Shown: piece after piece, positions 1,808-21,875 of the stretch | How the letters are laid out: every line of letters starts with the position of its first letter | Position numbering within the stretch: the first letter of the stretch is position 1 | Virus record (IMG/VR): IMGVR_UViG_3300030104_007226 | Span: 1,989 to 23,863 of that record | DNA: 21,875 nucleotides | Reading direction: 5' to 3' (one strand) | From: a virus | Notes under the pieces: generated by a model | Told to the model about the DNA's origin: nothing | The model's input: only the letters and a program-made list of their open reading frames with translations | The model's database searches: none | Position numbers and translations under genes: made by a program

Positions 1808-2391
1808 TGTCTGAATATTTTTCAAATTTCCCAAAAATTCTTTATGACATTGATGGAACTAATTCTACTGCTCCTGAATTTTCTACTGCAATAAACCTCT
1901 TGATACGAAACAAACTAAGAGAGGTTGTCAAAGGTGATATTTCAACATACTATCCTTATATCATCCCAGAAGAAGTTAGAAGGCCAGATGTCTTATCACA
2001 AAATGTATATGGTGATGTGTCTTTCACATGGACCATCTTTTTAGTCAATAATATACTCGATCCCCTTTGGCAGTGGCCAATGGATTCCAGAGTCTTTGAG
2101 TCATACCTCACTAGAAAGTATGGTTCTGTAGGTGCATCTAAAATTACAGTTCATCATTATGAGTATACATGGCAGGAAAGAGTTGAAGCCACAGGAACTT
2201 CTGATCCCATACCCGCACAAAAAGTAGAAGTGGATTACGATACATATCTGGGTATCAATGAAGATTTCAGAGAAGTTATTTATAACTTTGAATATGAAGA
2301 GACTAAAAACGAAGCAAATCGTGAAATATCTTTGATTCAACCATTTTATATAAGTCAAGTCATAGATGAAGCCAGAGGATTATTCAGATAA
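1807..2391 (+). CDS. 53: Baseplate wedge protein gp53
   Basis: At 194 residues this is almost the length of T4 gp53 (about 196). It begins MSEYFSNFPKILYDIDG and contains VYGDVSFTWTIFLVNNILDP followed by LWQWPM, the most recognisable stretch of the gp53 family in marine T4-likes. gp53 links neighbouring wedges into the hexagonal baseplate. The gene overlaps both neighbours at TAATG junctions, which suggests translational coupling and roughly matched amounts. In T4 gene 53 also lies directly upstream of the hub genes. Confidence 0.85.
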   Translation: MSEYFSNFPKILYDIDGTNSTAPEFSTAINLLIRNKLREVVKGDISTYYPYIIPEEVRRPDVLSQNVYGDVSFTWTIFLVNNILDPLWQWPMDSRVFESYLTRKYGSVGASKITVHHYEYTWQERVEATGTSDPIPAQKVEVDYDTYLGINEDFREVIYNFEYEETKNEANREISLIQPFYISQVIDEARGLFR

Positions 2392-4208
2392 TGGCAGGAG
2401 GAAACCTCACAAAAGCACAAACCGAAACAGCCCATAATGAAAAAAGTTTGGGAAGACAGGTTGGTGAATATAAGATAAATCGTATCAGAATAATTTCTCC
2501 TTTGAGGTCTAGGGCTCTTGGGGTGGGATCTTACATAGACATTAGTGAGGGCACAAAAGCAGTCTGGTCTGAGATCAATTTTTATGCGGATATTGATACT
2601 CCAATAGTCTCAGGAGATATTACTCTTTCTGATGCAGTCGGTATTGTAGAGGCTACACCAATTCTTGGTGAAGAAATATTAGAAGTGTCCTTTTCTACTG
2701 CAGGTGCAACTCCTTTACCAATATCTGCAGATGCAAATAACGACCCACCTAGTGATGCAATTATAGTTAATAGGTTCAGGATACACAGAGTTGACCCACC
2801 AACAACTGGTAATCAAAATTTTAGATCAATAAAACTTCATTTTGTTTCTGATTTGGTCGTGAAAAATGAACAAATTGAAGTTCAGAAATCATTCAAAGGA
2901 ACTGCTAACTTTCCTAAAACTATTTCTGATATAGCAAGAAGTGTATATTATGATTCTTTTTGTATGGGTGATAGTCCTACTAAAAAAGAGTTTAAAGTAG
3001 AACCAACGAAAAGTATCTACTCTGTGCATATACCAAACTGGACTCCTTTCAAAGCAATTGAGTATCTTGCATCTAAGGCTGAATCAGTAAGTTCTGATGC
3101 AAATGGTGCTCATTTTGTATTCTATGAAACTCTCAAAGGATATAGATTTGTGTCTATCGAAACATTGATGAAAGGTGGTTTCAGAAATTACGGACAAGTC
3201 ATTGAAGATGATGTAGAATTTCAAAATAAGGTAGGATTTAAATATACAGAACATAGTAGTAAATCCTCACCAAATGCTTTTTTACCAATTTATAATGAGT
3301 ATAAACCAAACATTACAAGACCATCTCATGTGGCCAAATATTTTATGAGGCCTGCAAATATTGGTGTGGACGAACTTTCAAAAAGGTTTTCTGTATCTTC
3401 TTTGACTGTCTTGAATTATCCAGACACACTTCGTAATTTGAGGTCTGGTATGTATGCAAACAAAGTAATTACACATGATTTACTTGGGATGACTGTTCAT
3501 ACAAAAAATTATTTGTATAAAAAACAAAAAGACGTAATTAGAATAGAAGAGGGTGGAGTTCAAACTCTAGTGGATAATCCAGATAAGTTACCAGAGGATG
3601 CAGAAATTGACATTGACAATTTTACTACTGCAGAGGGAGGGGCACTCTGTTCCGAATTTGCAGATTACTTAGATAGACCACAATCTCATGTGTCTTTATT
3701 TCCTTCAACTAGAAATATTGGTGTAACTTTTGGAAATGGACCTACAAAGATGACTTTTAGAGATAGTGATGGTGATTTGATACCAAATGTAAATTTGAAA
3801 ACTCGTACCATAGATGGAAAACCAGAAACTGCATTTCCTATTGAAACTGATAGAAATATTGAAGAAGTTTTGGGTAAAAGAATTTCACAACAAAGACAAA
3901 TTGAATCAGTCAGAATACAGTTTCAAGTTCCTGGCGATTCATCAAGAGAAGTTGGAGATTTGATATACTTTAGTTATCCTTCTGATGAACCAGAAGATAG
4001 AAATACTGGTAATATAAAAGAACATAAGTACCTGAGTGGTAGATATTTGATCACGGCCCTTAGACACAAAATAACCCCAGAAGAATATGAAATGGTAGTT
4101 GAAGCTTCAAAAGACTCTTATCTATCTGAACCTTCGGTTGGATTTAAGGCAAATATACCCAGAACACAAACCCCAGATGGAACTGATTTTGTTGAAGAAG
4201 GAAGATAA
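2391..4208 (+). CDS. 27: Baseplate hub subunit, gp27-like
   Basis: The product is a 605-residue protein immediately upstream of gp5 and overlapping it (TAATG). Around residues 219-264 is FKAIEYLASKAESVSSDANG followed by an FVFYETLKGYRFVSIETL block. This is the typical 'solve on a coarse element, then read the function' segment of phage hub/VgrG-type gp27 domains. The C-terminal part (about 504-582) has IQFQVPGDSSREVGDLIYFS and RYLITALRHKITPEEYEMVV, resembling hub tube domains that end by defining the inner channel. gp27 trimers form the hub ring that holds the gp5 spike. It is longer than T4 gp27 (391), as hub proteins of marine relatives often are. The assignment rests on position and these motifs, not on close identity. 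Confidence 0.68.
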   Translation: MAGGNLTKAQTETAHNEKSLGRQVGEYKINRIRIISPLRSRALGVGSYIDISEGTKAVWSEINFYADIDTPIVSGDITLSDAVGIVEATPILGEEILEVSFSTAGATPLPISADANNDPPSDAIIVNRFRIHRVDPPTTGNQNFRSIKLHFVSDLVVKNEQIEVQKSFKGTANFPKTISDIARSVYYDSFCMGDSPTKKEFKVEPTKSIYSVHIPNWTPFKAIEYLASKAESVSSDANGAHFVFYETLKGYRFVSIETLMKGGFRNYGQVIEDDVEFQNKVGFKYTEHSSKSSPNAFLPIYNEYKPNITRPSHVAKYFMRPANIGVDELSKRFSVSSLTVLNYPDTLRNLRSGMYANKVITHDLLGMTVHTKNYLYKKQKDVIRIEEGGVQTLVDNPDKLPEDAEIDIDNFTTAEGGALCSEFADYLDRPQSHVSLFPSTRNIGVTFGNGPTKMTFRDSDGDLIPNVNLKTRTIDGKPETAFPIETDRNIEEVLGKRISQQRQIESVRIQFQVPGDSSREVGDLIYFSYPSDEPEDRNTGNIKEHKYLSGRYLITALRHKITPEEYEMVVEASKDSYLSEPSVGFKANIPRTQTPDGTDFVEEGR

Positions 4209-6046
4209 TGAACAATAATTTTATGGGAAAAGATGGATTCGTTTGGTGGCAGGGTGTAGTAGAAGACCGCCAAGATCCATTGTATTTGGGTAGATGTCGA
4301 GTCAGAATTCTTGGATGGGACACTGAAGATAAAGTAAAGATGCCCACAGAAGAGTTACCTTGGGCGTTTCCAATTCAACCAATCACTTCTGCTGCACAAA
4401 CTGGTGTGGGTACAAGTCCAACTGGACCAGTAGAGGGAACATGGGTTGTTGGTTTTTATCGTGATGGAGAAGAAGCTCAAGAAAGAGTTTTCTTTGGGAC
4501 TTTGGGTGGTATTCCACAAGCTCCAGGCGATCCAGTAAAAGGTTTTAGTGACCCTAGACTCACCAACTCTGAAATTAAAAAACATGAACTTGATGATGAG
4601 TATGAAACAGTTGGTCCAAGATTAGAGTACAGTGCAAAATCTGATCATAGAGTACCAACTGCCCCTGCAGGGATAGACCTTTATACTGGGGCTAAAAAAC
4701 TTAGTGTCGATCAACTAAAAACTAAAGATGATTTAGGAAATTATGTACATCGTGAGTTGATGGCACATGCCGTGGGTCCAAATCTCTTAACTCCTGTTCA
4801 GGTGATTCTCAAAGAGTATACTTCCAAGAGTAGATACCCAGATGTGGATTACATAGGAGAACCTACTACACCAAGACCTGCATTAGGAAGATTTGGAAAT
4901 TTTAAAGGTGTCACTTCTCATACTGGTGGTGGTATTGTAAAACAAAAAGTAGAGTGGTCAAAAATTACTCAAAATATCAGAAGATCAAAAATTCCCACAT
5001 TCAATCCTTCGGCAGGTGTGGTGAGAACAACATGGTCTGAAATTGATCCAGCAACTATCAACAAAGCAAAGTATCCATATAATCATGTACACCAATCAGA
5101 AAGTGGACACATTATAGAAATTGATGATACGCCAGGTTTTGAAAGACTACATCGTTATCATAGAGCTGGTACATTTGAAGAGATCGGTGCCTTAGGACAA
5201 AGAATTACAAAAGTGATGAATGAAGATCAAACATTCAAAATGATGAACTCGTTTGAAAAAATCTTTGGTGATTCTTTGATTAGTATTGATGGAGATTTGG
5301 ATATAGTTTCAGAAAGAGGTTACACTCACAGCACAGGTTCTTTCAGTCTTGATTCTAAATCTGCAATAAGAATGTCTGGATTAGGACAAGGATTGTTTTC
5401 GGCTCGTGGAGGTATAGTTGTTGATTCTGGTTCTGGATCATTAACTCTTAGAGGTCAAAATTTAATTCATGATTTTAAAGATTCTAGTCAAACACAAAAA
5501 ATTAGAGGAAATCTAGTAAATAAGGTAGGTGGTAAGTTTTCAACCAGAGCAAGTGGAATAAATTTAGGATCGAGAGGTGCAACATCAGTTAGTTCAGGTG
5601 GTTCTTATAATGTGATAACAGGAGATAATATTAATGAAGCGTCAACAAATTTGGCAGGTATATTTGGAGCTCCAGCAAGATCCTTCAAGTCTGCTATAGG
5701 TGAGATTATATTTGAGACTGCATTGCCTGGTCCAACTGGTTCTTTTGCATTTAATGCTGGAATTTCAGGATTACTTGGATCAATCTCAATGGATCAACTT
5801 GGACAAATATCACTCAATGTTGGTCCTGGCGGTTCTATTGCAAAATTAACTCTTGGGGCAACTGGTATTGAACTTTCTTATCTTGCAGGATTGGCAAAGA
5901 TTGAATTAAATGCAGCAGGTGTTTCCATAAACGGATTGACTTCAACAATGACAGGAACAGTACAAGCAAAAGTTGATGGAGCATTGGTCAACGTGGAGGC
6001 TTCGGGAATCAATACTGTTAAGGGTTCTCTTGTAATGATTAATTAG
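4208..6046 (+). CDS. 5: Baseplate hub/spike protein gp5-type (no lysozyme domain seen)
   Basis: The 612-residue product has an N-terminal OB fold at about residues 9-100 (FVWWQGVVEDRQDPLYLGRC, VRILGWDTEDK, LPWAFPIQP, GTWVVGFYRDGEEAQERVFF). At residues 292-326 is the gp5/VgrG signature NHVHQSESGHIIEIDDTPG followed by ERLHRYHRAGTFEEIG. A Gly/Ser-rich stretch of alternating short hydrophobic and polar segments runs from about 350 to the end, consistent with a triple-stranded beta-helix needle. In T4 a lysozyme domain sits between the OB fold and the helix. Here residues 130-290 lack any T4-lysozyme-like Glu-Asp-Thr motif and look like a linker, so the hub appears non-lytic. The trimer would be the membrane-piercing spike capped by the PAAR protein encoded at 8330. 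Confidence 0.87.
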   Translation: MNNNFMGKDGFVWWQGVVEDRQDPLYLGRCRVRILGWDTEDKVKMPTEELPWAFPIQPITSAAQTGVGTSPTGPVEGTWVVGFYRDGEEAQERVFFGTLGGIPQAPGDPVKGFSDPRLTNSEIKKHELDDEYETVGPRLEYSAKSDHRVPTAPAGIDLYTGAKKLSVDQLKTKDDLGNYVHRELMAHAVGPNLLTPVQVILKEYTSKSRYPDVDYIGEPTTPRPALGRFGNFKGVTSHTGGGIVKQKVEWSKITQNIRRSKIPTFNPSAGVVRTTWSEIDPATINKAKYPYNHVHQSESGHIIEIDDTPGFERLHRYHRAGTFEEIGALGQRITKVMNEDQTFKMMNSFEKIFGDSLISIDGDLDIVSERGYTHSTGSFSLDSKSAIRMSGLGQGLFSARGGIVVDSGSGSLTLRGQNLIHDFKDSSQTQKIRGNLVNKVGGKFSTRASGINLGSRGATSVSSGGSYNVITGDNINEASTNLAGIFGAPARSFKSAIGEIIFETALPGPTGSFAFNAGISGLLGSISMDQLGQISLNVGPGGSIAKLTLGATGIELSYLAGLAKIELNAAGVSINGLTSTMTGTVQAKVDGALVNVEASGINTVKGSLVMIN

Positions 6047-6053
6047 GAGTGAT

Positions 6054-8321
6054 ATGGCAAATCCTATAATTTTTTGGACTCAACCACTAGATTCACCAGC
6101 TACTATTGATGACCCACACATTCTTAGGAATGATTTAGTTACTATTTCTAGGAAGGCACCATCAAGTCCAGCAATTCCTGGCGTAACTGCAGGGGCATAC
6201 TATGCTCAATTTAATGATGTTGCAAGAACAATTAATCCTGCAAGAGATGCAGTTTCAGAATCGGGAACCTTCGGTACTCCTGGCTATGTTGCTGCTTCAC
6301 CCGCAATTCCTGCAAATACACAGTACACTTATACGGATGAAGGTAAGATAGGTTTAGATGGTGGAGTATTTGAGTTATTACCATTTTCGTCTGGGGTGTC
6401 TCCTGCAACAACAGTTACATTTACAGATTTTGCTGGTACTGGTGTTTCTGGTTATCCAAAAACTTATAACAGTAATGATGGTAGTCCACAACAAACTGGT
6501 ATCCCATTGTGTGGTGGAACTGCAAACATAGAAGTACAAACTTCTTACAGTATTGCACCAATGTCAGTTGCACCTGTTTCTGGCGGTACGTTTGGAACTG
6601 CTGCAACTGGTGCAAGTGAATCTCCTGGCGGAACAGGAGAAAGTCCAACTGTAACTCCTGCCAGAATAACAGCAAATCCTTGGACTGCATATTTTGGAGA
6701 TACAACTGGACCTACAGTTACAAGATTTTCAGTTGATACATCAGTCACTAGTGTAGGTGGTGGTGTAACTAATCATGGTCCAGAAAATAGAATATCTGAA
6801 CTTTATACAGTAGGTGGCACTTATCATAATGGAACTCAAGTTTATGATGTTCACAGAGGTTCAATTTTATTCGATGTTGTTTCGGATACAGAAGCAGAAA
6901 TTAGAGGTGGTAATGTCACACAAAGTAAAACTGGTACAGCAAGTTGGGCAGCAGGACAAGATAGAACATTAACAGTAACAACAAGTGGTGCACATGGACT
7001 TACGGATCAATATAATAGAGTTTACATAACTGGAGCTAGTAACAATGCAATGAATGGATTATGGAATGTTGCAACAGTTACGAGTGATACACAATTTACT
7101 GTCAAATTATTTGCAGCACAATGTGGTCCTGCTGCAGTTACATCATCTGTCAATGTGGTTACCTATGATGGTATTGATAAAAAGGGAGGTGTATTAAGAC
7201 AACAAACTGGAACTATTAATACGATACAAAAAGTTGTAATATTAAGTCCAGCTTCTGGAACTGGCCCATCTGCTACTCCAGCAACACATAGTATCAACTA
7301 TAGGTACACTGGTTCTCACGGATTAGGTTCTTCTGGAACTGTTAATGTATCCGTTTCTGGTTCAGGACTTGCAAGTGGTACTCATGGTTCTAATCCAATA
7401 CCTACTGGTGATTTTACTGGTGCTGTCACTATAGATAGTGGGACACAATTTACAAGATCAGTTGCTTCAGGACTTGCAGGTGCTTCTGGTACTGTATCTG
7501 GAACTGTATCTACTCTTGCATCTGGTTTGAGTGCAAAAACATTTAATGCAGGTAATGACCTTGAAGTTGTTGCTGGAGGTATGTTTGGAAACAATCAAGT
7601 CATATTGAGAGGAAATGTTTCAACAACCAGAGGCGTAACTTACAGTTTTCATGGAAATACTACTTCAAGTCAGGTAAGTTCTATTTCTTTTACTGGTTCT
7701 ACTAAACCAAAAACATTATTTTATGATGCAGGTTTTAGGTTAAATAGTACTACAGGGCGTGTTTTTACAGAGGGAGCTCCATCAACTCAACCAAGTGGAA
7801 CTGATGGTATGCCGGATGGATTTGACCCAAATAATAATCCGAATGGAGGTGTTAAAGAGATTGATAGTTGGTTACCAAGGTCTATGCATGCCAAGGCCAA
7901 AGCATTAGAAAGAAATGATGTAACAGAGTTATTAAAAGCAAATACTTCTGGACAACATCAATTGGATCAAATGTTAAATTCTCCTATGGTAGATGCAAGT
8001 GAAAATCTTACTACCTTGATGACTCCAAGAGAACAAAAAGAAGAAACTTGTTGGTTTACTCTTAGAGCATCTAAAAATCCTAATCACAGGAGAGTAATAA
8101 CCAATATAGAGAATGAAGATTTCATAGATAGACAATTTGGAATCAAAGTATATACAAACATGATGAGTGATAGGAATGAGATAATTTTAGATTACATTGA
8201 TCCATCAAATACACCAGAAGTTGCAAACACAGATACTGCATTTGTTGCAAATGGTGTACCAATCACGAACCAACAACATTTAGATAATGGATATGCAAAT
8301 GGAAGTTTTACAAACCAATAG
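6054..8321 (+). CDS. Unknown virion structural protein, 755 residues, between hub and spike tip
   Basis: I do not recognise a named T4 counterpart. The start follows AGGAG (6045-6049), with only 7 bases after gp5. The N-terminal 100 residues contain two SPAIP segments (about 38-42 and 82-86). The middle is Gly/Ser/Thr-rich, apparently all beta, and holds two 'HGL' modules: around 303-353 (SGAHGLTDQYNRVYITGAS to VTSDTQFTVKL) and around 411-477 (YTGSHGLGSSGTVNV to IDSGTQFT). The C-terminal part, from about residue 598, is different: charged, mixed helix/strand, with WLPRSMHAKAKALERNDVTE, CWFTLRASKNPNHRRVITN and EDFIDRQFGIKVYTNMMSDR. It ends in an Asn/Gly-rich tail. Its place between gp5 and PAAR, inside the hub cluster, suggests a baseplate or hub-associated component. 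It could instead be a short fibre. Confidence 0.8.
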   Translation: MANPIIFWTQPLDSPATIDDPHILRNDLVTISRKAPSSPAIPGVTAGAYYAQFNDVARTINPARDAVSESGTFGTPGYVAASPAIPANTQYTYTDEGKIGLDGGVFELLPFSSGVSPATTVTFTDFAGTGVSGYPKTYNSNDGSPQQTGIPLCGGTANIEVQTSYSIAPMSVAPVSGGTFGTAATGASESPGGTGESPTVTPARITANPWTAYFGDTTGPTVTRFSVDTSVTSVGGGVTNHGPENRISELYTVGGTYHNGTQVYDVHRGSILFDVVSDTEAEIRGGNVTQSKTGTASWAAGQDRTLTVTTSGAHGLTDQYNRVYITGASNNAMNGLWNVATVTSDTQFTVKLFAAQCGPAAVTSSVNVVTYDGIDKKGGVLRQQTGTINTIQKVVILSPASGTGPSATPATHSINYRYTGSHGLGSSGTVNVSVSGSGLASGTHGSNPIPTGDFTGAVTIDSGTQFTRSVASGLAGASGTVSGTVSTLASGLSAKTFNAGNDLEVVAGGMFGNNQVILRGNVSTTRGVTYSFHGNTTSSQVSSISFTGSTKPKTLFYDAGFRLNSTTGRVFTEGAPSTQPSGTDGMPDGFDPNNNPNGGVKEIDSWLPRSMHAKAKALERNDVTELLKANTSGQHQLDQMLNSPMVDASENLTTLMTPREQKEETCWFTLRASKNPNHRRVITNIENEDFIDRQFGIKVYTNMMSDRNEIILDYIDPSNTPEVANTDTAFVANGVPITNQQHLDNGYANGSFTNQ

Positions 8322-8329
8322 GAGATAAT

Positions 8330-8617
8330 ATGGGAATGCCGGCTTCAATTTCAGGTGATCCATCTTTGGGTCATGCTTTCAGTCCAAGTGCAATTACACC
8401 AACTCAAGCAACTGTTTTAATTTTAAATAAACCAGTGCATGTGGTCGGAGATGTAATTGGTGTACACGTTCTTGGAACATCTGCCCATGCTGGTACTATT
8501 GCACAGGCTTCAACTACAGTATTTGCAAATAGTAAAGGTGTTGCTAGAATTATGGATACTGGTGATTGTGGTGCTATGATTCTTGGCACTGCTGGAAATG
8601 TATTGATAGGAGGATAA
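8330..8617 (+). CDS. PAAR-type spike tip protein (gp5.4-like)
   Basis: This 95-residue protein has the repeated three-strand pattern of PAAR proteins. GDPSLGHAF at the start is followed by ATVLILNKPVHVVGD, then TTVFANSKGVARIMDTGD, then CGAMILGTAGNVLIGG. PAAR proteins form a sharp cone on the end of gp5/VgrG spikes, usually held together by a metal bound by His and Cys. Candidate ligands here are H15, H37, H46, H53 and C80. T4 gp5.4 plays this role. GGAGAT at 8321-8326 precedes the ATG at 8330; a second in-frame ATG at 8336 would remove only two residues. The stop overlaps the next start (TAATG). It occurs in a hub cluster whose gp5 ends in a beta-helix, as expected for a tip. Confidence 0.85.
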   Translation: MGMPASISGDPSLGHAFSPSAITPTQATVLILNKPVHVVGDVIGVHVLGTSAHAGTIAQASTTVFANSKGVARIMDTGDCGAMILGTAGNVLIGG

Positions 8618-10750: not shown

Positions 10751-11143
10751 ATGCCGACTTACACTAGAACTTACAAAGATTTAGATTTGGATTTTACAGC
10801 AAATCCAATCACAGGAGATGTAGCTACAGTTACGGATGCAACATCAATCAAGAGAGGCATACGAAATATACTTCTAACGGAGAATCAAGAAAGACTGTTT
10901 CAACCAGAAGTTGGTTCTGGATTGAAAAATTTGTTATTTGAACCAATGACAAATATCACTACTCAATTACTTGAGGATGAAGTGAGAAATGCCATTGAAA
11001 GTTGGGAAGGTAGAGCTGAAATTGTAGAATGTATAGTGACGCCGGAAGAAGACCTTAACAGATATAGAGTTGCTGTAACATTTACAATTGTGAGTCAAAC
11101 GGACGAACAGCGACTAGAAGTATTCTTATCCAGAGAGAGATAA
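10751..11143 (+). CDS. 25: Baseplate wedge protein gp25 (GPW/gp25 family)
   Basis: At 130 residues this matches T4 gp25 (132). The family core is clear: SIKRGIRNILLTENQERLF then QPEVGSGLKNLLFEPMT, containing the conserved FEP segment (the EPR-like motif of the family), then a helix LLEDEVRNAIESWEGR and a final beta pair. gp25 sits at the wedge core with gp6 and gp53 and contacts the first ring of tail sheath. It has a lysozyme-like name in old annotations but no visible catalytic site here. GGAG at 10743-10746 sets the start. Three bases separate it from gene 6. Confidence 0.93.
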   Translation: MPTYTRTYKDLDLDFTANPITGDVATVTDATSIKRGIRNILLTENQERLFQPEVGSGLKNLLFEPMTNITTQLLEDEVRNAIESWEGRAEIVECIVTPEEDLNRYRVAVTFTIVSQTDEQRLEVFLSRER

Positions 11144-11146
11144 CAA

Positions 11147-13024
11147 ATGGCAGATGTTTCTTCAAAATTAAAGGTTTCGGAATTAGATTTTGATACTATA
11201 AAATCCAATCTCAAAAATTTTTTGAGTGATCAGAATGAATTTGCTGACTATGACTTTGATGCATCGGCTATGTCTGTTCTGTTGGATGTTCTTTCCTATA
11301 ATACTCATTACAATGCATTCTATTTGAATATGATTGTCAATGAGATGTTTCTCGATACTGCATCAATTAGGAACTCAGTAGTATCAAGAGCCAAACATCT
11401 TGGATATACACCACAATCAGTCAGGGGTGCAAAGGCATACGTTGATCTTACAATAACTCCTGCAGACACACCCTCAACAATAATTATAGCCAAAGATACT
11501 CAGTTTGCATCTTCAGTGAATGGTATATCTTACATTTTCAGCACCACAGGGTCTACTACTTTAAATGTAAATTCAAATGGAGTTTACACCACTGCAAATG
11601 TTGAGATAAGTCAGGGTGTTCCTTTGACGCATCGTTATACTGCAAATACAGAGAATCCAGATCAAAGATTTATTCTTCCAAATGCAAATACTGACACAAG
11701 CACCTTGACTGTTAGGATTCAGACTTCTGCAGAAAATACCAATGTTTATACTTATACTATTGCAAATGATACAACTACAGTTTCATCAACATCAAATGTG
11801 TATTTTTTAGAAGAAGCAGAGGATGGTAAATATGAGGTCATCTTCGGTGATGATGTCATAGGTAGAAAACCAGTAAGTGGAAATATTATCTTACTTTCTT
11901 CTCTCATTGCAGATGGTCAAGATCCAAATGGTGCCTCAACATTTAATCCAGTTGGATCAGTTGGTGGTTATTCAAATGTCACAGTTTCTACACTTACTTC
12001 AGCTTCAGGTGGTTCTCTTAGAGACTCAATCAATAAGATAAAATTTAATGCACCAAGGAGTTATCAAGCTCAAAACAGAGCCGTAACGATTAATGATTAC
12101 AAAAGAATACTTGAGAGAGATTATCCTGCTGCAGAGGCGGTGGTTGCATGGGGCGGTGAAACAAATGATCCCCCTGTCTATGGTAAAGTATATCTTGCAA
12201 TCAAACCAGCATCTGGACTTACACTCTCAACTGCTACCAAAAAATTTATCAAAGATACAGTCTTGGCAAATAGGAATGTTGTGTCTGTAACCCCAGAGGT
12301 TACAGATCCAGACTATTTGTATGTCACAGTAGATACTACCATAAAATATAATTCAACGAATACCACTCTGACAGCAGCAAGTATTGAATCTTTATTGACT
12401 AATACTGTTTATCAATATGGCCAAACTGATTTGGGGTCTTTTGCAGATCAATTTAGATATTCCCCATTGATAAAGAAAATTGATGAAACTGAGTCTGCCA
12501 TTGAAAGTAGTTTGACAACAGTTAAATTAAGAAGAACTTTCACACCTACTTTGAACGTGGCAACTTCTTATACTTTAAAGTATTCAAATAAAATTCCCAC
12601 AGTGAATGGTATACCACAGATTACAAGTACTCAATTTTCGCATGTAGATGATAATGGTACTTTAAGGACTAATTGTGAACTACAAGATGCAAATGGTGTA
12701 CTTCAGGTTTTTAGAACATCTGGATCTGACAGAATAATAGTTGCAAATAACGTGGGTACAGTTACTTATAATTCTGGAAATGTTGCTTTGACTACTTTCA
12801 AACCAACAACTATCACAGATGGAACATCTAATGTTAGTATTACTGTTACATTAGATTCAAATGATATTACCCCATTGAGAGAGCAAATTCTCCTTATTTC
12901 AAATAATGATATTTCTATTACTATGATTGATACTGGTGGAACTGGACAAACGACGGCTGTAACGAATACCACATCTTCGACAACAGCCACAGATACGACA
13001 TCAACTTCAAGTAGTAGCTATTAA
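11147..13024 (+). CDS. 6: Baseplate wedge protein gp6 (baseplate J family)
   Basis: This 625-residue product (T4 gp6 is 660) begins MADVSSKLKVSELDFDTIKS and continues DYDFDASAMSVLLDVLSYNT, HYNAFYLNMIVNEMFLDTAS and VSRAKHLGYTPQS, the standard gp6 N-terminal block. The central YFLEEAEDGKYEVIFGDDVI and the NRAVTINDYKRILERDYP segment are hallmark baseplate-J elements. gp6 dimers form the continuous inner ring of the baseplate that holds wedges together during contraction. It ends in a Thr/Ser-rich tail of about 30 residues, a disordered extension absent from T4. The start follows gp25 by three bases, with a weak AGAGAGA as possible ribosome binding site. The stop overlaps the next gene (TAATG). 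Confidence 0.93.
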   Translation: MADVSSKLKVSELDFDTIKSNLKNFLSDQNEFADYDFDASAMSVLLDVLSYNTHYNAFYLNMIVNEMFLDTASIRNSVVSRAKHLGYTPQSVRGAKAYVDLTITPADTPSTIIIAKDTQFASSVNGISYIFSTTGSTTLNVNSNGVYTTANVEISQGVPLTHRYTANTENPDQRFILPNANTDTSTLTVRIQTSAENTNVYTYTIANDTTTVSSTSNVYFLEEAEDGKYEVIFGDDVIGRKPVSGNIILLSSLIADGQDPNGASTFNPVGSVGGYSNVTVSTLTSASGGSLRDSINKIKFNAPRSYQAQNRAVTINDYKRILERDYPAAEAVVAWGGETNDPPVYGKVYLAIKPASGLTLSTATKKFIKDTVLANRNVVSVTPEVTDPDYLYVTVDTTIKYNSTNTTLTAASIESLLTNTVYQYGQTDLGSFADQFRYSPLIKKIDETESAIESSLTTVKLRRTFTPTLNVATSYTLKYSNKIPTVNGIPQITSTQFSHVDDNGTLRTNCELQDANGVLQVFRTSGSDRIIVANNVGTVTYNSGNVALTTFKPTTITDGTSNVSITVTLDSNDITPLREQILLISNNDISITMIDTGGTGQTTAVTNTTSSTTATDTTSTSSSSY

Positions 13025-16000
13025 TGAGAACAGACGGAGGAGCTCTATATACTCAGATAGAGCAACAATTACCAAATTTCATACAACATAATCACTCAAA
13101 GTTTTCTAAGTTTGTAGAGAAATACTATGAGTTTTTAGAACTGAATCTGGTTACATTCAACGATCTTGATCTGAATGAAGATAAACCGATTCAAGAAAGT
13201 GATAATGTAACGTATACAGTTACAGTTGCAACTGGTAATAATGCATACAGTAACTCCGTCAATAAGTATTTTGTCGATGGTGCAGTTTCCCCTGTTCTTA
13301 ATGTATCTTCTGGAATTACCTACGTTTTTGATCAGAGTAATTCTACAAACGAAGGTCATCCTCTTAGAATATCAACAACTCCAAACGGAAGACATACACC
13401 AGGCGGAGAACAATACTCAAATGGTGTAAATGTTGTAGCATTTGGTACTCCAGGCACTGCAGGAGCTCAAACTTCAGTCTATATCAGTCCAGATATAGCA
13501 GGAACTTATCTTTACTATTATTGTAACACACACTCAGGGATGGGTGGTAATGTCGTTATTGCTAATACTACTCCATACATCTCACTTGAAAACGGCAATA
13601 CTGATTCCTCAAATACAAATAATACTTACATTGACCTTGAAAATCCAAATCGTCAGGGTGACCAGTTTTTAAGTGGTGAAACAGTTGAAGGGGCCAACTC
13701 TGGTGCAACTGGTATCGTAAGAGGTAAGTATTCTACTACACAAGCATACATTGAAGAAACCAATAACGGAAACTTTCAAGTTGGTGAAAGAATTGTAGGT
13801 CAAGAGTCAAGAGTTTCTGCAAATGTTACTGCATATACAAGACAAGCTTTAAATGCATCTAGGAATGTCAAATCGTTTCAAGATGTAGACAAAGCACCTC
13901 TTGGTTTTGTTGAGTTATTAAGGAAAGAATTTTTACAAGGTGTACCAAAGGGTGCGTTGGGTAGTAAAGCCAACATGCTCAAACACATCAAAGATTTCTA
14001 CCGAGCAAAAGGTAATGAGGCTTCTTTCCAGTTTATCTTTCGACTTCTCTATGGAAAAGAAAATGTAAGTTTTTATTATCCAAGTACAGACATAATGAGA
14101 TTGTCTGACGGAAGATGGACTCAAAATAAATCTCTTAAAATTGACTTCGATCAGGCAAATAACTTCTCATCCTTTGAGGGTAGATTTGTCAGAGGTTCAA
14201 TTTCAAATGTTGTTGCTCTCATTGAAAGAACAGAGACATATCAAGTAGGTTCTACAACTATATCAGAATTATATCTTTCTAATATTGATGCAAACAATGC
14301 TTCATATAATGCAAATACTGATTCTGGATTTACATCATTCTTACCTAGTGATACAATCACAACAACCACTGCAGACGATGATGGAAACTATGCAACTGCA
14401 CCACTTACTGGTATTCTTGCTTCAGTTGCAATTGATGCAGGTGGGTCAAACTATTCGGTAGGTGATGACATTGCAATATCTGGTGGTGGGGGTGGTAGAG
14501 AAGCTGGTGTTAAAGTTGCTTCGGTATCTGATGCTACAATTAGTGCATTCGACATAATAGATCCCGGCGATGGTTTTGCAGTCGGTGATGGAGTTACGTT
14601 TACGAATGAGGGAACTGGTGGAACAGGTGGTGCTGCCAGAGTTCAAACAATTACTCCAACTGCAAATGTATTTGTTGATACTCTTACAATCAACCCACAC
14701 AAAGAAGATTTACTTAGTGCATCAGCATTTACTGCACCATTACAAGGTGCCACAGTAAATACTCATCTATTTTCAAACTCAACAACTACTTTCTCTGCTG
14801 GTCTTACTGGAACTGCACCAAAGAAAGGTGATCTACTTTTTGAGTTGAGTATCAGTCAATTATTGGCAGAATCTGGAAATGATGGTGGTGGAACCTATGG
14901 TGGAGGGACACTTACTACAGAGACAGGTGGAGGTGTTAGAAGATTTGATATAGAATCAATAGCTGATGATACTAATTACAATGCCAATACTGCCAAGTTT
15001 GGAACAGTCGTTTCAGTAGATACCACAACCACACCAAATACTGTAATCTATGCACTTGGTTCGATTGTTGTTGATACAGTCACAGGAACAAGAACTATCA
15101 GAAACTTTGAGAATACAGAAACAGTATTTGTCTATGATACTCAGAGAGATGAAACTGGTTCACCTGCAGCGGCAAATGGATATAATGCCGTATTTTCTGA
15201 TACTGGTGCCAATGTAGTCTTTGCAAATACTCCTGCAGCCGTATCCTCGAACACATCTCATGGTGCATTGGCAGGGACTCTCAATGAAGTAGAGATTGGT
15301 GGTATTCGTTCAATACAAGTTCTCTCATCTGGACAAGGTTATACATCCATACCAGTTGTTGAGATTGCAAATACTAAAATAGAATCTTTCGGTAATGCTC
15401 CAGATAAGGTGGGAGCTAATTCTGTATTCGTAACTCTTGCATCTGCAATAGCAAATCAGTTTACTTCAAACACGATTGTCAAAAATCAAAGTAATTCTGC
15501 TTCAGGCATAGTTCTTGGGCCGATAATTTCAAATACTGCTTTGGTTGCAACAGGAAATACTGTACTTAGAGTACAGATGACAACCAGTAATAATTTTTCT
15601 GCAAGTGATACTCTTACAGTATATACAAATAATGCTGATGAAAACCCAGTAGGTATTGGTGACTTCGGAACTGCAAATGCAACAACATCTGGTGCCACGG
15701 CTACGTTTACTCAAGCGGATCATGGTTTTACAGCAGGACAAAGAATTGTTGTAACTGGTTCAAGTTCTGGGACAGATGCAACTGTATACAATAACAACCA
15801 CACTATTGCAACTGTATCGAACACTTCTACGTTCACAGTTACTTTTCCTTCAACTCCTAGTGATACGAGTGAGTCAAATCTCAGAACAAGAAGAGTAATT
15901 TCTGCAAATGTGGCAGGATCTAACTCAGTTTTTGCAAATACTGGAGCCGCTGGTAATAATGCATCTATTGCGATTTCATCTATTGCTATTGGTGCAATTC

Positions 16001-19000
16001 AGTCGGTAACGATATTCAACTTTGGTGCAAACTATACATCAGCTCCAACTCTTGATGCCTCAGGTATTGGTGGTGGAGATGCAACTTTGACTGCATCCCT
16101 TGGAGCTCTTGCAGAGTATGATGGTTTCTTTGATGGGGCTCAGGGATTATTGAGTGGTCAAAATAGGATGCAAGATAATTTTTATTATCAAGACTTTTCC
16201 TATGTAATTAAGACGGACATAGATACTGCAACTTATCGTGACCAAATTCTGAATCTTGTACACCCTTCTGGACTAAAGATGTTCGGAGAAGTGGTGATGT
16301 ATTTGAATGCTACTGCAGGATTGATGAACTCGGCAGCAAATACAATCAACCACATACAAGCAAATACGGCGCTTACTGGTGGGTCAGTCAATGTTCCAAA
16401 TTACAGAGTTCATGAAATTACAATTGCCAGTCAGAATACTGCATCATCTAATGTTCAAATTTCAGTACAAGCTTCACTTTTCAGACCAGCTGTTGTATCA
16501 CCACCGATTGATGCACGAGTAGAGTTTCCACATATCAACTTTGATCTGATACTAGAACAATCAAATGCCGGTATTGCTTCAGAAGGAGCACAAGATACTA
16601 TTGGATTTGAAACAGATAGTGGTGAAGGTAGTATTCTACTTGATGATGGTTTCTCAAAAATAAGATCAGAAGAATTTGAAGTTTCTTTCATACAAGAAGA
16701 TGAATCAAATCTTGAACTTGAAGTGGCAACTGATGGTTCAAGAAACTATCTCTTATCAGAACCGATTGTAGAAACTACACAGATAGTTAGTGAAGACGAT
16801 CACGATGTATTCAATATTCGTTTAGAAGAAGATGGTAATGATTATCTAATAGAGCAAGAAGGAACTGAATACGAATACATTCTTTTTGAAGATGAAGGTA
16901 AAGTGATGGGTATTGATTATGCCCAAGAATCATTGAGGTTGACTTTAGAATCTGATGTTGTTGTACAAGATGAAGATCATTTTATAGTCATTGATAGGAC
17001 ACACTCAGATGGTTTCTTGATGCCACAGATTCAGTTTCCAGAATCAGAGACAGGAGCTGTTCAGATTGATATGGGTTATGGTACTCAACTGAAACTTGAA
17101 GATGATAACTATCTACTCCTTGAAAGAACTGAAGGAATGTTCCCATTGTATTTGGCAATGGAAGATTCAATGCAAGATGAGATTATTGTCGGAACTCAAA
17201 TTCAAATCAATCCGATTGCTCATCCAGATCCACCAGTACAACCATTTATAGTCTCAACTGTAGACGAATCAGATTCTGCAACTCCTTATGAAGAACAAGT
17301 ATGGATTGCTGAAACTGGTGGTGAATTAGTAGAATTAGAAGACGATGATGGAGGTCATTTACTCCTTGAGAGTAATTTTCATTTAAAGATGGAAGGTGAT
17401 GAAAATGCTGTAAATAGATTCATCTTTGATTTTGCCACTACAACAAAAGCATCTGCAGTCCTTGAGAATCTTGAAGTCAATCTCCCATACGGAACAGGAA
17501 GGTCTTCTAGTTTTGAATATAAAGCAGAAGGTAATCTCAATGTCACTATGGGTGAAGAGTTTGAACTCCTTGCTGAAGATGGTAGAAAATTTGTAGAAGA
17601 ATCTGTTCCTGACGATTTGGCAAACCTTACTACAGAAGATGGAGACATTTATCTTCTTGAACAGTCTTATCTGAGTAATCAACAATTTGCAATAAATCGA
17701 GCATCTGATACTACTGCAGAGATGAGAAACTTTATTGCTGCATCTTATGATAGAAAACCAAGTATCACAGGTACAGGCACAAACTTTGATTCTGATTTTA
17801 ATGCACCAATCGTTCTTGAAGATGATGATCAGACATTGGTAACTGAGGGTCTAGATGCAGACTTTAGATTAATTCGTGAACACAGCGAATTAGGTGTTCA
17901 ACCTTTTGGAACTGAACATTCTGATAATGCAACAACTTACATTACTCTTGAAGCACATACAACGGATGGTGATCTTATTCTGATTGAAGGTGATGATAGG
18001 ACATTTATTCCAATTGAATTGGAGACAGCAACTGGTGGCGGTAATCTTGGACTTGAGGTTTCAGAATTTAATTCAAACAGAAGACTTATCTATAACGATT
18101 ATCTTGATGTTATTATTGAAGAAGAATTTGTGGCACTTGAGGAAGATGATAGAATCCTCATGGAAGATTATGTCTCTGGTGATCCCGAATCATATAAGAC
18201 AGAGGGTGGAGATAATCTTGTATTAGAACATTTGAATGACAATTTGGCAACAGAAGGTGTCACGGGTATATTTCATATAACTTATGATCTCAAGATTGAA
18301 GACTTTACAGCAAGTGTGGCTCTTGAGGATAATACGAGTGTAATGCTTGAGTCTCATACTCCAACTGGAATTGGTGATATACTCCTTACTGCAAATGGTG
18401 ATAGATTGATTCGTGAAGATGACTCTGGTGAAGATAAATTTTTTCTGTCAGAAACATCTTATGCCAGAACTTATGCAAATGCAACAATTACTGTAGTTGA
18501 TGATAATAGGAAAACTACAAATGCTACAAGAAATTTATTATCTAGTGTGGCTGGAGATACGGATGACAATTTAGTTGCAGAAGATGGTAGTAATCTCGTA
18601 ACTGAAACTGGACAAGATGTTCCAACCACATCAGAGATTGAAATAATCGGTGATGTCTTTCCTCATGGATCAGATGAATTTGCCAGAGTGGTATTTGCAG
18701 ATGGAGATACTGCAGAAATTGTCAGTAGAACAAATGATTACCTTTATAATGTAGACTATGGTGCAATCTTGTTAGAAGATGACCCGATAACTGGAGCAAC
18801 AGAGTATCTGCTTGATGAACCTTCTGGTTCTAAGATAATTAGAAACTATGGAACATCTGCTCAAAACTATAGACTTGAATATGGAAGACATAATCAAGCA
18901 AGTTCTATCAATCAGACTGATAGAGTTATGAAGACAGAGATTGGAACTACAGATACAAATAATGCTGGAAGAGAATACCAGTTTACCATCAATGGAATTA

Positions 19001-19434
19001 CTACAGATGGAACAACTCTTCCAAACTTACATGAATGGTCTGAGATTCATGGAGACAATGTTGTAATGGAGGATGGAGCAAACATTCTCACTGAGGATGG
19101 TGAAGTTGGGCAAGATCCAAATGCCATACTCCTTGAGTTTGAAAATGTATTGATGTCTGAAAATACAATAATAGAAGAAGCAATTCTCGATGAGGACGGA
19201 GGTAATATAGTATTGGAGGACGAAAGTGATGATAGTGAATACCTCACCTACGAAGAAAATGAACATCTTGAACTTGAAAGTTTTGGATATAATTACAAAT
19301 TACTCAATATGGAGGGTGGAAAGTATAGAATTGACTCTATAGCAAATAATACTTTCATGAAACTAGATCAAGAAACTGATCTGTTTACTAATGCACCCTT
19401 CCGTGTCAATCATTTAGAACAGGTTCCATCTTGA
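13024..19434 (+). CDS. Giant 2136-residue baseplate wedge protein (gp7 position) with cupredoxin insert and acidic repeat extension
   Basis: The protein lies between gp6 and gp8, where T4 has gp7 (1032 residues), but is twice as long. Its order is: helical N-terminus (1-45, ALYTQIEQQLPNFIQHNHSK); cupredoxin-like domain (62-182; H112, C167, H170, M173); SGATG module (211-275); a conserved core block (281-376: GALGSKANMLKHIKDFYRAK, FIFRLLYGKENVSFYYP, DIMRLSDGRW); paired Gly-rich G-x-x-Y modules (467-545) and further copies near 760-790 and 1000-1030; an HGF module (893-944); a second conserved block (1028-1103: NFYYQDFSYVIKTDIDTATY, LVHPSGLKMFGEVVMY); then an acidic repeat extension (about 1169-2120). 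The two conserved blocks recur, from memory, in marine T4-like wedge proteins. Only one cysteine, C167, is visible. The gp7 role is inferred from order; direct similarity to T4 gp7 is not evident. Confidence 0.85.
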   Translation: MRTDGGALYTQIEQQLPNFIQHNHSKFSKFVEKYYEFLELNLVTFNDLDLNEDKPIQESDNVTYTVTVATGNNAYSNSVNKYFVDGAVSPVLNVSSGITYVFDQSNSTNEGHPLRISTTPNGRHTPGGEQYSNGVNVVAFGTPGTAGAQTSVYISPDIAGTYLYYYCNTHSGMGGNVVIANTTPYISLENGNTDSSNTNNTYIDLENPNRQGDQFLSGETVEGANSGATGIVRGKYSTTQAYIEETNNGNFQVGERIVGQESRVSANVTAYTRQALNASRNVKSFQDVDKAPLGFVELLRKEFLQGVPKGALGSKANMLKHIKDFYRAKGNEASFQFIFRLLYGKENVSFYYPSTDIMRLSDGRWTQNKSLKIDFDQANNFSSFEGRFVRGSISNVVALIERTETYQVGSTTISELYLSNIDANNASYNANTDSGFTSFLPSDTITTTTADDDGNYATAPLTGILASVAIDAGGSNYSVGDDIAISGGGGGREAGVKVASVSDATISAFDIIDPGDGFAVGDGVTFTNEGTGGTGGAARVQTITPTANVFVDTLTINPHKEDLLSASAFTAPLQGATVNTHLFSNSTTTFSAGLTGTAPKKGDLLFELSISQLLAESGNDGGGTYGGGTLTTETGGGVRRFDIESIADDTNYNANTAKFGTVVSVDTTTTPNTVIYALGSIVVDTVTGTRTIRNFENTETVFVYDTQRDETGSPAAANGYNAVFSDTGANVVFANTPAAVSSNTSHGALAGTLNEVEIGGIRSIQVLSSGQGYTSIPVVEIANTKIESFGNAPDKVGANSVFVTLASAIANQFTSNTIVKNQSNSASGIVLGPIISNTALVATGNTVLRVQMTTSNNFSASDTLTVYTNNADENPVGIGDFGTANATTSGATATFTQADHGFTAGQRIVVTGSSSGTDATVYNNNHTIATVSNTSTFTVTFPSTPSDTSESNLRTRRVISANVAGSNSVFANTGAAGNNASIAISSIAIGAIQSVTIFNFGANYTSAPTLDASGIGGGDATLTASLGALAEYDGFFDGAQGLLSGQNRMQDNFYYQDFSYVIKTDIDTATYRDQILNLVHPSGLKMFGEVVMYLNATAGLMNSAANTINHIQANTALTGGSVNVPNYRVHEITIASQNTASSNVQISVQASLFRPAVVSPPIDARVEFPHINFDLILEQSNAGIASEGAQDTIGFETDSGEGSILLDDGFSKIRSEEFEVSFIQEDESNLELEVATDGSRNYLLSEPIVETTQIVSEDDHDVFNIRLEEDGNDYLIEQEGTEYEYILFEDEGKVMGIDYAQESLRLTLESDVVVQDEDHFIVIDRTHSDGFLMPQIQFPESETGAVQIDMGYGTQLKLEDDNYLLLERTEGMFPLYLAMEDSMQDEIIVGTQIQINPIAHPDPPVQPFIVSTVDESDSATPYEEQVWIAETGGELVELEDDDGGHLLLESNFHLKMEGDENAVNRFIFDFATTTKASAVLENLEVNLPYGTGRSSSFEYKAEGNLNVTMGEEFELLAEDGRKFVEESVPDDLANLTTEDGDIYLLEQSYLSNQQFAINRASDTTAEMRNFIAASYDRKPSITGTGTNFDSDFNAPIVLEDDDQTLVTEGLDADFRLIREHSELGVQPFGTEHSDNATTYITLEAHTTDGDLILIEGDDRTFIPIELETATGGGNLGLEVSEFNSNRRLIYNDYLDVIIEEEFVALEEDDRILMEDYVSGDPESYKTEGGDNLVLEHLNDNLATEGVTGIFHITYDLKIEDFTASVALEDNTSVMLESHTPTGIGDILLTANGDRLIREDDSGEDKFFLSETSYARTYANATITVVDDNRKTTNATRNLLSSVAGDTDDNLVAEDGSNLVTETGQDVPTTSEIEIIGDVFPHGSDEFARVVFADGDTAEIVSRTNDYLYNVDYGAILLEDDPITGATEYLLDEPSGSKIIRNYGTSAQNYRLEYGRHNQASSINQTDRVMKTEIGTTDTNNAGREYQFTINGITTDGTTLPNLHEWSEIHGDNVVMEDGANILTEDGEVGQDPNAILLEFENVLMSENTIIEEAILDEDGGNIVLEDESDDSEYLTYEENEHLELESFGYNYKLLNMEGGKYRIDSIANNTFMKLDQETDLFTNAPFRVNHLEQVPS
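13207..13569 (+). other. Cupredoxin-like domain with intact type-1 copper ligands (residues 62-182)
   Basis: The domain runs from VTYTVTVATG to GNVVIANTT within the 2136-residue protein. It contains VSSGITYVFDQSNSTNEGHP, with the first His at 112, and TYLYYYCNTHSGMGGNVVI, with C167, H170 and M173. Type-1 copper sites use His, Cys, His and Met. The C-x2-H-x2-M spacing equals that of amicyanin. Similar YYYCxxHSGMGG segments are, from memory, frequent in marine phage structural proteins. Copper binding is inferred, not shown. Confidence 0.75.
16528..19383 (+). repeat. Degenerate acidic repeat region (residues about 1169-2120)
   Basis: About 950 residues are built of irregularly spaced units of the form hydrophobic-x-hydrophobic-E-D-[D/G]-x-x-[IL]-[LV]-x-E. 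Clear examples are GSILLDDG (1202-1209), LEDDNYLLLE (1358-1367), LEDDDGGHLLLE (1438-1449), IVLEDDDQTLVTEG (1596-1609), VALEEDDRILMED (1703-1715), NLVAEDGSNLVTE (1849-1861) and NVVMEDGANILTEDG (2012-2026). Each looks like a beta-hairpin with an acidic D-G or D-D turn. The stretch is strongly acidic and cysteine-free. The DNA repeats are too diverged to be recent copies. Confidence 0.7.
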
Positions 19435-19441: not shown

Positions 19442-19467
19442 TAAAAGAACAATAACTCACAATATTT

Positions 19468-19472
19468 GGAGG
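19468..19472 (+). promoter_or_regulatory. Strong Shine-Dalgarno (GGAGG) fixing the gp8 start
   Basis: GGAGG lies 8 bases before the ATG at 19481. It overlaps the in-frame TTG at 19466, which would be the alternative upstream start, so translation must begin at the ATG giving MPALVTNKFRIHNAKQF. Confidence 0.85.
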
Positions 19473-19480
19473 ATTTTCTG

Positions 19481-21202
19481 ATGCCTGCTTTAGTAACAAA
19501 CAAATTTCGTATCCACAACGCCAAACAGTTTGTGGAGGCTTTTGATGAGGTGTCCTTCTCTTCGGGCGGTGCAGTCACAGACTCGAGCGGGCTCCTCAAT
19601 TCAAATATGTATCTGTTTATCGGTAAACCAACTGCTTGGTCAGATGACAGTACACCACCATCTCCTACGGATGCCGTAGCCAATACTCACTATGAGAACT
19701 GGCGAGACATGATTGCTGCAAAGAAGATTACAGCTTCTGATGTATCACATTGTATCCCAAGGAAAAACTGGACTAATAATACCAGTTATTTTGCATACAC
19801 TCATGCTGCTGCAACACTTACTAGTCAAGATTTCTATGTCATGACTACAGATTATAATGTATATAAGTGTTTGTCAAATAGTGATACTGCATCTGGTGGT
19901 TCTGTGGCCACAACTTCTACAGTACAACCAACTGGAACTGGAACGAGTATCATTTCAACTGCAGATGGATACAAATGGAAATTCATGTATCAAATCTCTG
20001 CTGCAGATGCACTCAAGTTTGTCACACCAAACTATATTCCTGTTGATACAGTGAGAAGAGCAAATGGATTTCTTGCCAATACTTTTGATAACTCACCAGG
20101 CCAAAATCAATTTGATGTTGAGACTGCAGCCGCTTCTACTGGAAATGGTGCAATTGAAGTAATTCACATGACAAGTAGAGGAGCACAGTATCTTGGTGAA
20201 ACTGGAACTCTTTCTTCTGGTGGAACTACAACCTCATGTACGATTGCTGGTTCTGGTATTGGTTTGAATACTCTTGCAGCTGCTGACTGTATTGTAAATT
20301 CAGACATATACTTCACAAGTGGAGATGCTTCTGGACAGGGTGCAACAATTACTGACTATAATCAAAGTACAAAGGTGGTTACATTCACACCAGCAATTAC
20401 TGCACCATCTTCGGGTAGTACTTATTCAATTGGTCCAAAGATTGTAATCTCAGGTGACGGACAGGCTGCCAATGCAAGAGCAACAGTTAATGCAACTGGT
20501 TCAATTAATGCAGTAACAGTTGTTGCAGGAGGTAATAACTACTCCAATGCTACAATCACAGTCATTGCAAATGCATCACAGGCAAATAGTTATAATCCAA
20601 CTGTTGCTACACTGACTCCTATTATCGGTCCAGCGGGTGGACATGGATCAGATGCAGTTAAAGAATTGGGTGGTTTCTATGTTCTCACAAATGCTCGACT
20701 TGAGTATTCGGAATCGAATAACTTCACAACCAACAACGACTTCCGTAAAGTTGGTATGCTTGCGCAACCTAAGTATGCAAATGGTGATTTTGCCACTGCA
20801 TCAGTTGTGGACCAAGCAACCACAATAGTACTAACTTCGTGGAATGGAACTCAGTATAAAGCTGACGAATTGGTAACAGGTGCAACTTCTGGTGCAACAG
20901 GCAGAGTCATTGATTTTACTGGAAACAATACACTTCGTTTATCAGATATTATTCCATCTGGAAACTCAGCGAATGCAGGATACAATGGCATTTATGGATA
21001 TTTCACAAATTCAGAAGTTATTGCTGCTAATACAACTGGAGCAAGTGGGTCTGGTGCATCAGCCACTGCAAATGGTTCTGGAGCAGTTACTGGTGGAGAC
21101 TTAACAAGGTTCTCAGGTGATATTCTTTATGTAGAGAATCGTTCTCCTGTCACAAGAGCAGCAGACCAGATAGAGGATGTAAAACTGATAATTGAATTTT
21201 AA
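19481..21202 (+). CDS. 8: Baseplate wedge protein gp8
   Basis: The 573-residue product carries the gp8 signature: NMYLFIGKPTAWSDD, ENWRDMIAAKKITASDVSHC, IPRKNWTNNTSYFAYTH, FYVMTTDYNVYKCLSN and GYKWKFMYQISAADALKF (about residues 40-195). The closing RSPVTRAADQIEDVKLIIEF is also typical. In T4 gp8 is a 334-residue dimer that joins gp7, gp10 and gp6 in the wedge. The extra 240 or so residues here are a modular insert: beta segments, a G-x-x-Y module (SINAVTVVAGGNNYSNATIT, about 340-360) and an SGATG module (YKADELVTGATSGATGRVID, about 459-478). The start is fixed by GGAGG at 19468-19472. Twenty-four bases separate it from the next gene. Confidence 0.9.
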   Translation: MPALVTNKFRIHNAKQFVEAFDEVSFSSGGAVTDSSGLLNSNMYLFIGKPTAWSDDSTPPSPTDAVANTHYENWRDMIAAKKITASDVSHCIPRKNWTNNTSYFAYTHAAATLTSQDFYVMTTDYNVYKCLSNSDTASGGSVATTSTVQPTGTGTSIISTADGYKWKFMYQISAADALKFVTPNYIPVDTVRRANGFLANTFDNSPGQNQFDVETAAASTGNGAIEVIHMTSRGAQYLGETGTLSSGGTTTSCTIAGSGIGLNTLAAADCIVNSDIYFTSGDASGQGATITDYNQSTKVVTFTPAITAPSSGSTYSIGPKIVISGDGQAANARATVNATGSINAVTVVAGGNNYSNATITVIANASQANSYNPTVATLTPIIGPAGGHGSDAVKELGGFYVLTNARLEYSESNNFTTNNDFRKVGMLAQPKYANGDFATASVVDQATTIVLTSWNGTQYKADELVTGATSGATGRVIDFTGNNTLRLSDIIPSGNSANAGYNGIYGYFTNSEVIAANTTGASGSGASATANGSGAVTGGDLTRFSGDILYVENRSPVTRAADQIEDVKLIIEF

Positions 21203-21226: not shown

Positions 21227-21875
21227 ATGGCACTTACTACAGATTTCAATGTCGATCCATATTATGACGATTATGATGAATCTAAAGAGTTTTATAGAGT
21301 ATTATTTCGACCTGGCTATGCAGTTCAAGCAAGAGAGGTAACTCAGCTCCAAACGATCCTTCAGAAACAAATTGAAAGAAATGGAAGACACACCTTTGAA
21401 GAAGGCAGTATTGTTCTTGGTTGTGAACTCAACTATGACAATGAGGTAAGATCACTCAAACTAGAAACTCAGTTTTCAGGTGCAGACCTTACTATCAATA
21501 GTTTTTCAAATGGTGTTATAACTGGGGCTACATCTAATGCACGTGCAAAAGTTGTGTCCACAGCAGCTTCTACAACAAGTGACCAACCTACTCTGATGTT
21601 TCATTATCTCAATAACAATGAGTTTGATGATGGTGAAACAATTACAGTCGTAGGTACAACAGTTCAAGCAAACACAGTAAGTACCACAGGTGCCTCTGGT
21701 ATAGCAAATGCAGTGAGTAATGGTTCGGTAGTAAGTATCAACTCAGGTGTTTTCTATGTCGGAGGATTTTTCCTATTCAAAGATTCTGAGTCTTTAATTC
21801 TTGAAAAGTATACTAGTACTCCATCCTATAGAATTGGTTTACAAGTTACAGAGAGTACAGTAACTGCCGACTCTG
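21227..21875 (+). CDS. DUF4815-type virion protein, 5' part (3' cut by window end)
   Basis: An ATG at 21227, preceded by TAGGAAA (21214-21220), opens a frame that continues to the window edge (216 residues seen). The start MALTTDFNVDPYYDDYDESK, followed by FYRVLFRPGYAVQAREVTQL and LQKQIERNGRHTFEEGSIV, is the hallmark of phage DUF4815 proteins found next to gp8 in marine T4-likes. An SGATG-like module follows (GVITGATSNARAKVVS, about residues 96-111, then EFDDGETITVVG). In T4 genes 9 and 10 follow gene 8; whether this protein replaces one of them, for instance as a peripheral baseplate or fibre-attachment protein, cannot be settled from the N-terminus. Confidence 0.85.
   Translation, partial: MALTTDFNVDPYYDDYDESKEFYRVLFRPGYAVQAREVTQLQTILQKQIERNGRHTFEEGSIVLGCELNYDNEVRSLKLETQFSGADLTINSFSNGVITGATSNARAKVVSTAASTTSDQPTLMFHYLNNNEFDDGETITVVGTTVQANTVSTTGASGIANAVSNGSVVSINSGVFYVGGFFLFKDSESLILEKYTSTPSYRIGLQVTESTVTADS

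Follow-up and report, generated by a model that had tools for sequence, protein, structure and literature searches.

The C-terminal 976 residues of a giant phage baseplate wedge protein carry a degenerate acidic octapeptide (the octad) far more often than expected by chance. This extension begins at a recognizable boundary after the conserved core, is under purifying selection, and differs between relatives by short modular indels; the glutamate that closes each octad is nearly invariant, and the motif recurs in other phage tail proteins. With moderate confidence, we interpret the extension as a peripheral, acidic, β-rich arm on the C-terminus of a gp7-type wedge protein, accreted from octad modules.

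The gp7-type core and its C-terminal extension

The DNA analyzed (the window) is 21,875 nucleotides long and represents positions 1989-23863 of a 23.9-kb IMG/VR virus record, whose source is called a marine phage. An open reading frame on the + strand (13024-19434) encodes a protein of 2136 aa. It sits between genes that match the gp6 (11147-13024, upstream) and gp8 (19466-21202, downstream) families in Pfam and PHROG, with a gp25-like wedge gene beginning at 10751, i.e., it occupies the gp7 position. Within the core (residues 1-1160; 13024..16503, + strand), residues 1043-1090, and only these, matched PF23786 (Baseplate_wedge; E = 5.8e-7, 29.7 bits against a curated cut-off of 27). Wedge PHROGs matched residues about 274-525 (phrog_17744/26741) and about 1034-1114. 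Judged by sequence, the giant protein is a T4-like baseplate wedge protein of the known gp7 type, having in common with T4 gp7 and PF23786 both the gene position between gp6 and gp8 and homology in the core. The sole PDB sequence with even a faint match was the gp7 chain 9f4a (1032 aa), of which residues 844-928 aligned weakly to core residues 1045-1124 (E = 0.013). As only this segment aligned, the initial annotation was right that the extension is unlike T4 gp7: 9f4a continues for about 100 residues past the shared segment, whereas the window protein continues for about 1000 acidic residues.

Based on the PF23786, PHROG, and 9f4a matches, we place the end of the core near residue 1160, leaving residues 1161-2136 (16504..19431, + strand; stop codon 19432-19434) as the extension. 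The initial annotation had started it at 16528, which is roughly where the core does end, although the boundary lies nearer residue 1160 (nucleotide 16504). The extension contains 216 Asp plus Glu and 50 Lys plus Arg residues (pI 4.05, charge about -164), compared with 103 and 61 (charge -41) in the 1160-residue core. It was first described as strongly acidic and cysteine-free, and both hold; however, the lack of cysteine is not distinctive, because there is only one (C167, in the core) in the whole giant protein.

That cysteine lies in a cupredoxin-like insert (residues 62-175; window 13207-13548) with the sequence ...EGHPLRI...YYYCNTHSGMGG, in which C167, H170, and M173, together with an upstream histidine, resemble a type-1 copper site. 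Cyanophage and pelagiphage proteins contain comparable stretches, as does, by eye, another gp7-type protein (L131). At the other end of the window, 21227-21874 encodes the beginning of a large protein with a match to phrog_358/DUF4815, the rest of which is cut off by the end of the record; in HTVC008M, the gene following gp8 is annotated VrlC.

The octad motif in the extension and its orthologues

The octad consensus in the extension is E-D-G-(D/N)-x-(I/L)-L-x|E, roughly EDG-x-x-ILL, although it is degenerate; the consensus pooled over the family is E-D-G-(D/N)-(R/Y)-I-L-L|E-D-G, with a period of 8. The extension contains 23 instances of the pattern [ED][DNGST][GDN]x(1-3)hhx[ED], compared with 1.1 ± 1.1 in shuffled sequences (maximum 6, n = 500), and the core has none. 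To avoid circularity, we also used a 13-residue profile trained on 90 tandem octads of other IMG/VR phages. The training octads came in part from gp7-type proteins in other lineages, but not from any of the ten orthologues described below. An earlier iterative profile, built from the window only, had been overfitted and was replaced by this one. With the new profile, the extension had 13 sites (0.12 per shuffle) and the core had none; with a stricter cut-off there were 12 sites in the extension and none in ten other window proteins. The degenerate acidic hydrophobic-E-D-G repeat that had been noticed after the conserved core is therefore real and well above background. The motif is also concentrated by gene, with 23, 13, and 6 copies in the gp7-type genes of G000, G001, and G003, and no more than one copy in any other open reading frame listed for them.

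The best-scoring profile site was E2057 (score 22.5), within a 29-aa segment, LEFENVLMSENTIIEEAILDEDGGNIVLE (residues 2037-2065; 19132..19218; all sites here are on the + strand). Other sites included LKLEDDNYLLLER (E1359; 17089..17127; score 16.6), the tandem pair VVMEDGANILTED (E2016; 19060..19098; 14.9), LLAEDGRKFVEES (E1518; 17566..17604; 14.6), which was kept in 10/10 aligned relatives, LVAEDGSNLVTET (E1853; 18571..18609; 12.2), which lies in a segment missing from L015-L017 in the alignment, and LTTEDGDIYLLEQ (E1538; 17626..17664; 10.4).

The repeat is less regular than the initial annotation implied. Octads are often paired, 8 residues apart, and 8 is the modal spacing of the 45 hhxE strands in the extension, but it accounts for only 9/44 intervals; the remaining spacings are irregular, with a range of 5-82 residues, and there is no global period. 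Among Glu-Glu lags in the window protein, 20 was the only one above z 2.5, although a lag of 8 was seen in the relatives L017, L015, and L009. Because the strand intervals vary so widely, a uniform solenoid is not supported and, judged by sequence, there is no constant coil length.

Querying IMG/VR with the core yielded orthologues with 51-80% identity across its full length. In those that were usable (L007-L017), the extension varied from 547 to 1202 aa and the motif from 6 copies (L016) to 23 (the window protein), confirming the variable repeat content that the initial annotation had proposed looking for in related phages; the L011 extension (705 aa) stops at a contig end. The L008 orthologue is in two open reading frames (2290-6255 and 6597-8477), representing either a true split or a sequence error. 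The isolated relatives HTVC008M, Mosig, and Melnitz and the cyanophage giants (S-SSM5) have cores homologous to that of the window protein. However, the gp7-type proteins of HTVC008M, Mosig, and Melnitz (875-1016 aa) are not motif-rich and, unlike the window protein, have no octad-rich extension, and the part of the S-SSM5 giant examined (L005) was not among the motif-rich open reading frames.

Among the closest proteins, those of the window, L014, and L007, which have 68-72% identity, the indels of at least 20 aa were without exception pieces of 26-42 aa containing octads, and motif coverage was 0.26-0.42 in the inserts versus 0.08-0.15 in the rest of the extension. In the more distant pairs L009/L007 and L015/L016, the inserts were not clearly richer in motif than the remainder. 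Examples from the pairwise indels are the 29-aa segment containing E2057, which is missing in L014, and a 31-aa segment, GELVELEDDDGGHLLLESNFHLKMEGDENAV (residues 1433-1463; 17320..17412, + strand), missing in L014, L007, and L012. By contrast with these repeats, part of the extension (e.g., the FPHG...DGDT region, about residues 1879-1895) does not look repetitive and is shared with L015-L017, which, like the inserts of the more distant pairs, speaks against an arm built of octads.

The dN/dS ratio was 0.23-0.31 in the extension and 0.08-0.16 in the core; these ratios are rough because dS is high, but the extension diverges more quickly than the core while remaining under purifying selection. 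The Glu that closes each hhxE strand had a conservation of 0.92, compared with 0.57 for other Glu (p = 6e-7), although defining these sites from the window sequence may favor conserved blocks. We regard the extension as a translated and selected part of the protein, rather than a functionless spacer.

Octads in other phage proteins

A DNA pattern encoding an octad pair (EDGxxhhhEDG) gave at least 120 matches in IMG/VR, with those listed being mostly in frame within open reading frames, compared with 31 in all of IMG/VR for a reversed-peptide control. A triple-octad pattern also gave at least 120 matches, of which 120/120 listed were in frame; the triple octad had only 14 matches among roughly 85,000 genomes of bacteria and archaea. 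The octad carriers scanned included gp7-type wedge proteins, siphovirus J proteins, minor tail proteins, one tail protein, and one head-closure protein, and the tandem octads lay at their termini and in loops. The motif is therefore not specific to the gp7-type giant but is widespread among virion proteins of environmental phages.

In the J proteins, an octad meander takes the place of a short DDPAGTPTY-type loop; it is present in about 80% of the 55 sequences aligned (column occupancy 0.80), a share that is not a survey because the sequences were found with an octad-bearing query. The closing Glu residues of this insert were conserved in 100%, 100%, and 93%. At a second site, octads are present in L123/L174, but not in N15 or MED4-117. 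By eye, the wedge proteins L140 and L146 look similar, except that their octads appear to occupy different loops.

Another acidic motif, approximately (I/L)LDGTDSSSTNAGDNxLxE, recurs in the gp7-type proteins L131, L140, L146, and L002 (that of HTVC008M), and often adjoins octads. In many short open reading frames, octads immediately precede the stop codon; those of L104, L358, L359, L416, L384, and others end in two or three octads, and an ATG lies within about 10 bases. Their last Glu codon often yields GGAG, a possible ribosome-binding site for the next gene, and in L104 and L358 that gene has weak tail-fibre matches.

Pfam, PHROG, and PDB searches of the extension gave sub-threshold matches only. 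The region 16528-19434 had no Pfam match, to PF23786 or otherwise, and a single sub-threshold PHROG match, and no Ig-like family profile matched in the Pfam and PHROG searches. Searches (tblastn) with the extensions of the window protein, L017, and L016 found no matches in 50,697 phage records; an idealized octad string gave none either, probably owing to low-complexity filtering. No relevant paper on the motif was found in the open-access literature searched, which is not proof of absence. The extension matched no family tested, and the octad appears to be uncatalogued.

Interpretation of the extension

With AlphaFold2, the extension (10 sequences) gave a pLDDT of 33, with short strands and neither a confident fold nor a solenoid; in a J-protein domain (55 sequences), the strands of the domain reached about 80 and the octad insert about 50. 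Because confidence was low in both, we infer from the sequence pattern that each octad is probably a short β-strand followed by an acidic D-G turn. The arm would have grown as small modules, each comprising one or a few octads, were repeatedly gained (and lost) in frame.

We considered whether the extension might instead consist of several small globular β domains that do the work, with the octads as decoration of their loops. This is a possibility we take seriously, although we doubt it. The octad-poor regions align among distant relatives that lack the octad segments (e.g., TITQTGTTITLSGSIFPHG in L016 against the interrupted window protein), octads do occupy domain loops in J proteins, and the by-eye comparison of L140 with L146 gives the same impression. 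However, no part of the extension is significantly matched by any Pfam, PHROG, or PDB family, and the residue types best conserved in it, namely E, L, and G, are those of the octads rather than of typical domain cores. A regular calcium-dependent solenoid or β-roll, the idea put forward in the initial annotation, has in its favor the acidic turns, the period of 8 in adjacent octads, and the one nearly invariant Glu per octad. In the RTX nonapeptide β-roll, short acidic Gly/Asp repeats are likewise combined with a hydrophobic strand, and calcium is conceivable in the extension too. Against this, the octad spacing is irregular, and indels of 26-42 aa would break the register. The period of 8, with three hydrophobics per unit, also differs from RTX; there were no matches to GGxGxDxUx nonapeptides, strict or relaxed, and a motif scan found no DxDxDG or cadherin-type calcium loop. 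The AlphaFold2 model contains no solenoid, but is itself uninformative. We therefore regard a solenoid as improbable.

Alternatively, the octad could be a DNA element that is mobile, or was duplicated recently, and that inserts in frame, as do the palindromic elements of Rickettsia, with only an incidental effect on the protein. The modular indels and the dispersal of octads over unrelated genes would fit, but the octad copies within each of nine genes had no more synonymous codons in common than expected from codon usage (z -0.3 to 1.8), so that a recent DNA element as their origin was rejected. Moreover, the extension contains no arrays of tandem DNA repeats, other than one 48-bp pair, and the Glu is kept even though synonymous sites are near saturation. 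We consider this explanation very improbable.

If the extension is an arm accreted from octads, its most likely position would be the outer baseplate rim, and its many uniform acidic edges may there contact the host surface or other parts of the virion, with the obligatory Glu acting as a functional residue, possibly via divalent cations. An adhesin-like arm, as originally suggested, is plausible, although a function in adhesion or cation binding is perhaps rather less than an even prospect. A known parallel is the Ig-like domains of phage virion proteins such as T4 Hoc, which has been discussed as binding bacterial surfaces (PMC10385173). Like the proposed octad arm, these domains are acidic surface modules of variable number on a conserved virion anchor; however, they are whole Ig folds, whereas octad modules are units of 8 residues in pairs or triples. 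More tentatively, the octad may be a structural or binding module that is shared across phages and has not been described before: an acidic unit of strand and turn, 8 residues long, in which the Glu is obligatory. It would be inserted in frame at the termini and in the loops of proteins of the baseplate, tail tip, tail, and head closure in myoviruses, siphoviruses, and probably podoviruses, and would provide them with a shared element for docking or adhesion. The gp7 extension would then be among its largest accumulations.

Baseplate wedge proteins are usually regarded as conserved assembly parts, yet one of them has here gained an acidic arm of ~109 kDa, one that can evolve by gain and loss of short modules. 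If phage tail parts follow a shared sequence rule that can be tested, it would aid the annotation of many unknown proteins.
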